Shown here: positions 47,402-48,409 of the stretch, piece after piece
Layout: the number at the start of each line of letters is the position of its first letter
Position numbering within the stretch: position 1 is the stretch's first letter
NCBI RefSeq assembly: GCF_016894445.1
Contig: NZ_CP056775.1
Coordinates: 2,978,001-3,042,000, forward strand
DNA length: 64,000 bases
Direction: 5' to 3'
Source: Dyadobacter sandarakinus
GTDB lineage: Bacteria > Bacteroidota > Bacteroidia > Cytophagales > Spirosomataceae
Made by a program: the position numbers and the translations under genes
Notes under the pieces: model-generated
What the model was told of the DNA's origin: nothing
Database searches by the model: none
What the model saw: only the letters and a program-made list of their open reading frames with translations

Positions 47402-47923
47402 TTAAACAAGCACCTTTCTCATCATCACGTCGGTTTGCTCATCTTCACCAAACCTGAAAATGTGCTTACTGAATGCAGTAAACCCGTTTTTTTCATAAAA
47501 CCGTATGGCTTTTGCATTTTCCTCCCACACGCCCAGCCAGAGAGACGACACCTTTTTATCCTCCGCCATGCTGAGTGCTTTTTCGTACAGCAGCTGGCCG
47601 ATTCTTTTACCATGATAAGCATGTTTCACATAAATCCGCTCAATTTCCAGTGAGTCGTCTTCGTGCAACTCCGTTTGCGCCTTTCCTGCATTCAGTTTCA
47701 GGTAGCCGATCACCTGCTCACCTTCATGGGCAACAAAAAACCATGAATCCGGATTACTTAACTCTGCTGCAAGCTTCGTATCGCTGAAATTTTCGGCCAG
47801 GTACTGCTGCATGTCAGCCTCGGTATTCGATCCTACAAAGGTTTCAAAGAAAGTTTCCCTGGCAATTTGCTGTACTGCGGCCAGGTCCGCCAGACCAGCT
47901 TCGGTGATTGTTATCGGTTCCAT
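47402..47923 (-). CDS. GNAT family N-acetyltransferase
   Basis: This 173-residue protein carries the GNAT core: EQVIGYLKLNAGKAQTEL, the acetyl-CoA loop RIYVKHAYHGKRIGQLLYEK and LWLGVWEENAKAIRFYEKNG. It transfers acetyl groups to an amine or peptide substrate that cannot be identified. It lies 20 bp downstream of the Gdx exporter gene's stop end on the same strand, so it may share that transcript. Confidence 0.85.
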   Translation of the reverse strand: MEPITITEAGLADLAAVQQIARETFFETFVGSNTEADMQQYLAENFSDTKLAAELSNPDSWFFVAHEGEQVIGYLKLNAGKAQTELHEDDSLEIERIYVKHAYHGKRIGQLLYEKALSMAEDKKVSSLWLGVWEENAKAIRFYEKNGFTAFSKHIFRFGEDEQTDVMMRKVLV

Positions 47924-47943: not shown

Positions 47944-48255
47944 TCAGGAAAGCTTCATAAGTATAAGTCCGGCTGTAATCAGCAGAGCCGACGCAATACG
48001 CAGGGTATTAACCGGTTCACCAAGCACCAGTATTCCCACCAGGAATGCACCTACGGCACCTATTCCTGTCCAAACCATGTAAGATGTACTGAGCGGCAGG
48101 GTACGCATTGCGAGCGCAAGCAGACCAAAGCTGGCCATCATGGCTATAATGGTAATGCACGTAGGAACAAGCCGGGTAAAACCTTCAGACTGCTTCATGA
48201 AGTAGGCCCAGACGATTTCGAGCAGGCCTGCAAAAAAGAGATAAATCCAGGACAT
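47944..48255 (-). CDS. Small multidrug resistance exporter, Gdx/SugE type (guanidinium)
   Basis: This is a 103-residue, four-helix membrane protein that exports guanidinium. The start MSWIYLFFAGLLEIVWAYFM has the conserved membrane Glu, and KQSEGFTRLVP, SFGLLALAMRTLPLSTSYMV and GAVGAFLVGILVLGEPVN are typical of the SugE branch. I used the ATG at 48255; a longer reading would run through the riboswitch. Two ACGG-loop hairpins upstream indicate guanidine control of this gene. A GNAT gene follows on the same strand. Confidence 0.9.
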   Translation of the reverse strand: MSWIYLFFAGLLEIVWAYFMKQSEGFTRLVPTCITIIAMMASFGLLALAMRTLPLSTSYMVWTGIGAVGAFLVGILVLGEPVNTLRIASALLITAGLILMKLS

Positions 48256-48273
48256 ATGGGTGACCTTTTTAGG

Positions 48274-48318
48274 CCGGGCCGTCCCGGTTCGGTTCCCACA
48301 GCGGGGAGGCCGTCCTCC
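48274..48318 (-). promoter_or_regulatory. Guanidine-II (mini-ykkC) riboswitch before the Gdx exporter
   Basis: On the minus strand two 5-bp hairpins with identical ACGG loops follow each other: GGAGG-ACGG-CCTCC (48318 to 48305) and CCGGG-ACGG-CCCGG (48287 to 48274), joined by a 17-nt linker. This is the defining structure of the guanidine-II riboswitch, where the two ACGR loops kiss when guanidine binds. The second hairpin ends 18 nt before the ATG and can control the ribosome site. Confidence 0.9.
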
Positions 48319-48332
48319 TGCATTGAAAAGAA

Positions 48333-48363
48333 AAACCACCTGCAAAATCGTTGCAGGTGGTTT
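48333..48363 (-). terminator. Terminator downstream of the tRNA-Ala remnant
   Basis: AAACCACCTGCAA pairs with TTGCAGGTGGTTT around AATCG, and the minus strand continues into TTTT. It ended the original tRNA-Ala transcript and stands 14 bp before the riboswitch. Confidence 0.75.
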
Positions 48364-48367
48364 GAAG

Positions 48368-48409
48368 TGGAGAATATCGGATTCGAACCGACGACCTCTT
48401 GCATGCCAT
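48368..48409 (-). other. 3' fragment of tRNA-Ala(GGC), attachment end of the second element
   Basis: The minus strand matches tRNA-Ala from the anticodon loop (ATGGCAT, anticodon GGC) to the discriminator A, with the T arm GTCGG-TTCGAAT-CCGAT and acceptor strand ATTCTCC. At 48410 the match stops: the 5' strand of the anticodon stem and everything before it are missing. This is the duplicated 3' end left by integration into tRNA-Ala; the full tRNA should lie at the other end of the element, outside the window. Confidence 0.8.

Follow-up and report, generated by a model that had tools for sequence, protein, structure and literature searches.

The DNA analysed here, referred to as the window, is a stretch of 64,000 nucleotides of the genome of Dyadobacter sandarakinus, a member of Spirosomaceae (Bacteroidota). 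In the region of interest, a gene for a Gdx-type exporter is preceded by a guanidine-II element and followed by a gene for a GNAT acetyltransferase, and on the other side of the leader lies the end of an integrated element. Read directly on the minus strand, the leader has the order GCAGGAGGACGGCCTCC-CCGCTGTGGGAACCGAA-CCGGGACGGCCCGG-CCTAAAAAGGTCACCCAT-ATG, and the features of the region are the following:

47402..47923, minus strand: PaiA-like GNAT acetyltransferase (PF00583; NCBIfam PaiA 177.8 bits, below the cut-off of 250)
47944..48255, minus strand: gdx (SMR family, Gdx type), 103 aa, intact (PF00893, SugE and Gdx-Clo match)
48262..48275, minus strand: predicted expression-platform hairpin P3, GGCCT-AAAA-AGGTC (register conserved and covarying in relatives)
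48274..48321, minus strand: guanidine-II (mini-ykkC) aptamer, RF01068 (cmscan 33.6 bits, gathering 32)
48274..48287, minus strand: P2 hairpin, CCGGG-ACGG-CCCGG (from the sequence)
48288..48304, minus strand: linker CCGCTGTGGGAACCGAA between P1 and P2, 17 nt (from the sequence)
48305..48318, minus strand: P1 hairpin, GGAGG-ACGG-CCTCC, 5 bp (from the sequence)
48333..48364, minus strand: terminator-like inverted repeat in the 3' flank of tRNA-Ala, with about 11 nt between its end and the aptamer
48365..48409, minus strand: 3' part of tRNA-Ala(GGC), the 45-bp att core and one end of the element, with two copies in the genome
48571..49806, plus strand: tyrosine integrase of the element adjoining gdx (PF13102, PF00589, PF17293)

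The first two nucleotides of P3 in the window are the 3' end of P2, and 18 nt separate P2 from the start codon of gdx (ATG at 48255, minus strand). A previous sequence-only reading of this DNA had described two 5-bp hairpins with ACGG loops and a 17-nt linker, standing 18 nt before the gene, and all these figures are correct on the minus strand. The same reading had assigned the structure to the guanidine-II class, and the covariance-model search that it called for bears this out: the match, from 48321 to 48274, covers all 48 positions of the RF01068 model and exceeds the gathering score by 1.6 bits, with an E-value of 0.0058 against the 4227 families of the Rfam scan and of 1.3e-4 genome-wide. 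It is the sole RF01068 match in the 6.07-Mb genome, and a control search of 14 genomes returned matches in E. coli and Caulobacter. The traits by which membership in RF01068 is judged are all found in the window copy, namely a score at or above gathering, two ACGR-tetraloop hairpins, the position in a gdx leader, and conservation with the gene. Despite the thin score margin, the identity holds because the paired hairpins recur in the leaders of the gdx lineage, as described below. As a refinement, identical ACGG/ACGG loops are atypical for guanidine-II. Judged by sequence and conservation, the window element truly belongs to the guanidine-II riboswitches, an established class, and it is predicted to bind guanidine. 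P3, the loss of the Shine-Dalgarno motif, the pairing of gdx with GNAT, the absent promoter, and the neighbouring mobile element had escaped the sequence-only reading.

Regarding the gene, its earlier assignment to the SugE/Gdx group of the SMR family is borne out by PF00893 (E 1.2e-27 in the domain search), by SugE as the best NCBIfam model (117.3 bits, with the next family at 71.4), and by Gdx-Clo (6wk5, E 2e-27) as the closest solved relative. "Gdx-type" is the safe wording, because the score is below the equivalog cut-off of the SugE model (126 bits) and the protein belongs to a sub-lineage with the helix 1 motif WAYFMKQSEGF, the corresponding motif in E. coli and other Gdx proteins being WA(I/V)GLKYxxGF. 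All of the Gdx-Clo residues E13, W16, S42, Y59, and W62 are kept, and what the Glu, Trp, Ser, and Tyr-switch residues do has been described (PMC9574504). Substitution rates (dN about 0.11, dS above 1) indicate strong purifying selection on the window gdx. By family and active-site residues, its product is a Gdx-type exporter, for which guanidinium export is predicted.

The GNAT gene starts 20 nt after the end of gdx, has an open reading frame, and is presumed to be the second gene of the gdx operon. A GNAT gene is also directly downstream of gdx in about 14 further leaders of the Spirosomaceae gdx lineage, the pair being kept in Dyadobacter and in further genera (L109; L111, L122, L125), and is adjacent to gdx in none of the alphaproteobacterial loci. 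Its presence beside gdx has a precedent, because the guanidine-IV and Gd4v motifs control GNATs that acetylate canavanine and agmatine, respectively (PMC9788692). These systems resemble the window in that a GNAT acetyltransferase is controlled by a guanidine-type riboswitch, and differ from it in that the window GNAT is PaiA-like and presumably shares an operon with gdx under guanidine-II, which brings a GNAT acetyltransferase into connection with guanidine-II control.

To place the element in its family, 222 Spirosomaceae genomes were searched with the protein, and close relatives of the window gdx, taken as those above 130 bits, after which the scores fall to about 74 bits, occur at 46 loci in 45 genomes. 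The sequence-only reading had made its identification depend on the hairpins being kept before gdx in related species, and P1 and P2 are indeed present in 43 of the 46 distinct leaders of this lineage, all of which were read by inspection; at least 22 distinct leaders are above RF01068 gathering. Counts from Rfam alone (7 of 59 relatives, all 7 of the same genus, and 3 of 395 genomes of the phylum) were rejected as a measure of distribution, being a severe under-count. They miss many aptamers because several (L113, L094, L111, L115, L130, and L108) reach no more than 27.8-31.7 bits, and because three (L112, L121, and L131) of 20 scanned leaders gave no entry with E-values up to 3. On this comparative evidence, gdx genes of this lineage in Spirosomaceae are usually preceded by the predicted guanidine-II aptamer. 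It is missing before a gdx of the same lineage in three leaders (L011/L095, from Dyadobacter CY323; L128; L137), which are apparent natural losses within the family.

Comparison of the leaders thus gives good support for guanidine-II control across an entire family of Bacteroidota, of which the public model detects only a part. A 2025 review describes the class mainly from Proteobacteria (PMC12186494), in accord with what the sequence-only reading had stated, and among the papers accessible to our literature search none reports guanidine-II from Bacteroidota. The riboswitch class itself is known; what appears to be new is its family-wide distribution, the covarying platform that is probably free of a Shine-Dalgarno (SD) motif, and the linked GNAT gene. 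Outside Spirosomaceae, the phylum sample contained two guanidine-II matches before Gdx genes, with 46.1 and 42.8 bits (L139 and L140; genomes G161 and G243), and the Gdx leaders sampled from other Bacteroidota gave no Rfam match. The two have in common with the window an RF01068 match before a Gdx gene, but their Gdx lineage is unrelated (42-45% identity) and their linker is E. coli-like, and therefore they probably represent separate acquisitions.

Some leaders depart from the usual hairpin forms. A five-base AACGR loop in P1 (GGAGG-AACGR-CCTCC) occurs in L112, L131, L132, and in L030 from Hydrocarboniphaga, and one P2 loop reads ACGC (L121). In Persicitalea jodogahamensis (L022, the same as L114), three extra P2-like hairpins of 14 nt, with the loops AAGA, ATGA, and AAGA, are arranged head-to-tail between P2 and the start codon, from 2886 to about 2980.

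The window copy has peculiarities of its own. Its P1 loop is ACGG, where nearly all relatives have ACGA (Dyadobacter sp. Leaf189, for instance, has ACGA/ACGG loops); its linker is one nt shorter than in the relatives; and its P2 closes with C-G in place of the U-G wobble found in most of them. For E. coli constructs, a KD of 264 uM was reported for ACGG/ACGG versus 59 uM for ACGA/ACGA, about fourfold weaker, and GG variants were called rare (PMC9300104). A perfect Bacteroidota -7 element, TAnnTTTG, is found upstream of P1 in 32 of 43 leaders versus 1.8 expected in shuffles. Between tRNA-Ala and the window aptamer, the best match to this element has 4 of 6 positions, and the nearest perfect one is 282 nt upstream, within the integrase gene, with none within 280 nt.

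The cassette with gdx is located between the tRNA-Ala mobile element and gnd. The integrated element is about 25.3 kb long (G000:C1 3026365-3051744, i.e., from window position 48365 to past the end of the window), and the copies of its att core are at C1:3026368 and 3051703, the second of which, beyond the window, holds the intact tRNA-Ala(ggc). Repeats like that at 48333..48364 follow tRNA-Ala in several relatives. In Dyadobacter CY323, gnd is about 1.3 kb from tRNA-Ala, on the same side and with no gdx in between, and in other relatives gdx is distant from tRNA-Ala(GGC) or on a different contig; therefore the window cassette was probably relocated into an integration hot spot, which is what this tRNA-Ala(GGC) looks like in the genus. 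The hot spot is suggested by similar element-like ends (GTTCGACCTATGTTCGACCT), which several relatives have at the same tRNA-Ala(GGC).

With these features, the window copy could be read as a decaying or unregulated relic, whose promoter and best loop disappeared when it moved beside tRNA-Ala, and any transcription of its gdx would then be read-through out of the element. The promoter that most relatives have is missing nearby, the P1 loop and the short linker deviate, and the terminator-like repeat and the element are directly upstream, all as such a reading would have it; against this, both gdx and GNAT frames are open, gdx is selected to stay intact, P1, P2, and P3 are all perfect, and P2 is closed by C-G in place of the prevailing wobble, so that we consider a relic unlikely.

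The leaders contain two further structures in addition to P1 and P2. The linker of the relatives forms a mini-hairpin, CCC-N5-GGG, of 3-4 bp (3.7 bp observed vs 2.1 +/- 0.13 in shuffles), which is covariant as CTC/GAG in L133 and L134 and weakened to CCG/TGG in the window copy. The other is P3, which, with at least 5 bp and starting exactly two nt inside the 3' arm of P2 (offset -2), is found in 29 of 41 distinct Spirosomaceae leaders and is missing in the other 12. Dinucleotide shuffles give 3.9 +/- 1.7 (maximum 9 in 200 runs), and a hairpin of this type is found in only 0-6 leaders at each of eleven other registers. The arms of P3 covary (GGCCT/AGGTC, GACCT/AGGTC, GATCG/CGGTC, GATCA/TGATT, GACTT/AAGTC, GGCCA/TGGTC), with 18 distinct arm pairs fully paired, where re-dealt arms give 85%, and the summed MFE is -132.8 vs -49.4 +/- 9.1. 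In alphaproteobacterial gdx leaders, P3 is strong too, with 6.0 bp vs 3.7 +/- 0.14.

In Spirosomaceae, P3 covers the stretch immediately before the AUG, and an SD-like motif is present in 4 of 42 leaders, versus 44 of 48 in Alphaproteobacteria, where the Shine-Dalgarno is usually within P3. Bacteroidetes naturally lack SDs, and initiation is tuned by the structure of the mRNA (PMC6847099). The energies computed for the window RNA, -18.3 kcal/mol for the P2-full and -17.4 kcal/mol for the P3-full state, are nearly equal, as a switch would need; P2 and P3 overlap by two nt only, and the unconstrained MFE fold of the window leader with 30 coding nt is unlike either drawn state.

The leader of E. 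coli gdx (sugE) resembles that of the window in having, immediately ahead of a Gdx exporter gene, two GC-rich ACGR-loop hairpins joined by a short linker. In contrast, it has ACGA/ACGG loops, no linker mini-hairpin, the SD-like motif CCGGAG, and no P3 overlapping P2, whereas the window has ACGG/ACGG loops, a P3, and no SD. The likeness to the guanidine-II-like gdx leaders of Alphaproteobacteria (Kordiimonas, Paracoccus, Hyphomonas, Sphingobium) includes P2 (CGGGACGRCCCG), the P3 overlapping it, in most of them a linker mini-hairpin made of a C-run and a G-run, and an exporter of the WAYFMKQSEGF subfamily with about 60-72% identity; the difference is the Shine-Dalgarno that they contain.

Switching could also follow the model published for E. 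coli, in which the linker between P1 and P2 acts as an anti-Shine-Dalgarno that ligand binding pulls off the region before the AUG (PMC9300104, PMC9094411). The complementarity of the linker to the leader is slightly above that of shuffles (5.26 bp vs 4.65 +/- 0.15), but the SD that it would mask is nearly absent in Spirosomaceae, the linker has a conserved and covariant mini-hairpin of its own, and the signal of P3 is far sharper and locked to one register, which makes control of this kind quite unlikely here. That the hairpins arose by chance or are a protein-binding repeat, and no riboswitch, is hardly credible, for although the motif is small, its score is barely over gathering, and the hairpin pair was judged suggestive of protein binding by early authors (PMC2864571), it is kept throughout the leaders of one gdx lineage with its ACG loop trimers, and the class has been crystallised with guanidinium (PMC5486947).

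Regarding the origin of the riboswitch and its gene, the sequence-only reading had held that a Bacteroidota host would mean a wider range of the class or a transfer, a view now supported by protein identities and by a tree. Identity of the window Gdx reaches 72% with alphaproteobacterial proteins, but only 42-54% with the Gdx of other Bacteroidota. In the tree, which has 106 columns and a weak backbone, the Spirosomaceae proteins form a single group (support 87/84) within a subfamily that is otherwise almost wholly from Proteobacteria; this subfamily is split from the E. coli Gdx at 100/95, and the Gdx of other Bacteroidota lie across a 99/95 branch. Constraining all Bacteroidota to a single clade costs 45.8 log-likelihood units with an AU p of 0.087, so that the constraint is not rejected and we grade transfer as likely, not proven. 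The leaders agree with a joint transfer of switch and gene, because the linker mini-hairpin and P3 are common to Spirosomaceae and Alphaproteobacteria, and neither was seen in the leaders of E. coli, L139, or L140. The most likely course is a single acquisition, in which the ancestor of Spirosomaceae received switch and exporter together from Alphaproteobacteria.

We are rather confident of the overall reading, in which a true guanidine-II riboswitch of the gdx-GNAT operon, most likely brought in jointly from Alphaproteobacteria, would work as a translational ON switch based on P3. When guanidine is absent, P3 would capture the last two nt of P2 and keep the initiation region closed. When guanidinium is bound, the loops of P1 and P2 would kiss and P2 would close fully, reclaiming the two shared nt and leaving P3 with 3 of its 5 bp; ribosomes would then start on gdx, leading to export of guanidinium. 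Since Bacteroidota ribosomes do not rely on the SD, the P3 of Spirosomaceae would work by keeping the initiation region itself buried. A more specific proposal, which we regard as evenly balanced, is that a P3 that once sequestered the SD was retained after the move from Alphaproteobacteria to Bacteroidota and the loss of the SD, and that SD-independent initiation is now controlled purely by occlusion of the start region. The locus offers a natural test case for how a translation-level riboswitch operates without Shine-Dalgarno pairing, and for the question of whether a platform can persist once the motif that it masked is gone.

Among the alphaproteobacterial gdx leaders, 32 of 48 combine the canonical P2 (CGGGACGRCCCG) with a conserved first-hairpin loop, for example CCACGT or CAACGT, in place of ACGR. 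These hairpins (in L025, L031, L033, L038, L050, L081, and others) are about 45-100 nt before gdx, retain the ACG trimer, and score below the Rfam cut-off in the loci tested; they may represent guanidine-II with a variant P1 and changed binding. In a Sphingomonas clade (L057, L059, L060, L068, L070, L075-L078, L084, L089), the leaders are without the aptamer and the start of gdx overlaps or abuts an apparent upstream gene. A record named Bacillus sp. 2B10 (L085) carries the gdx and leader of a Sphingomonas clade, and is probably contaminated or misnamed.
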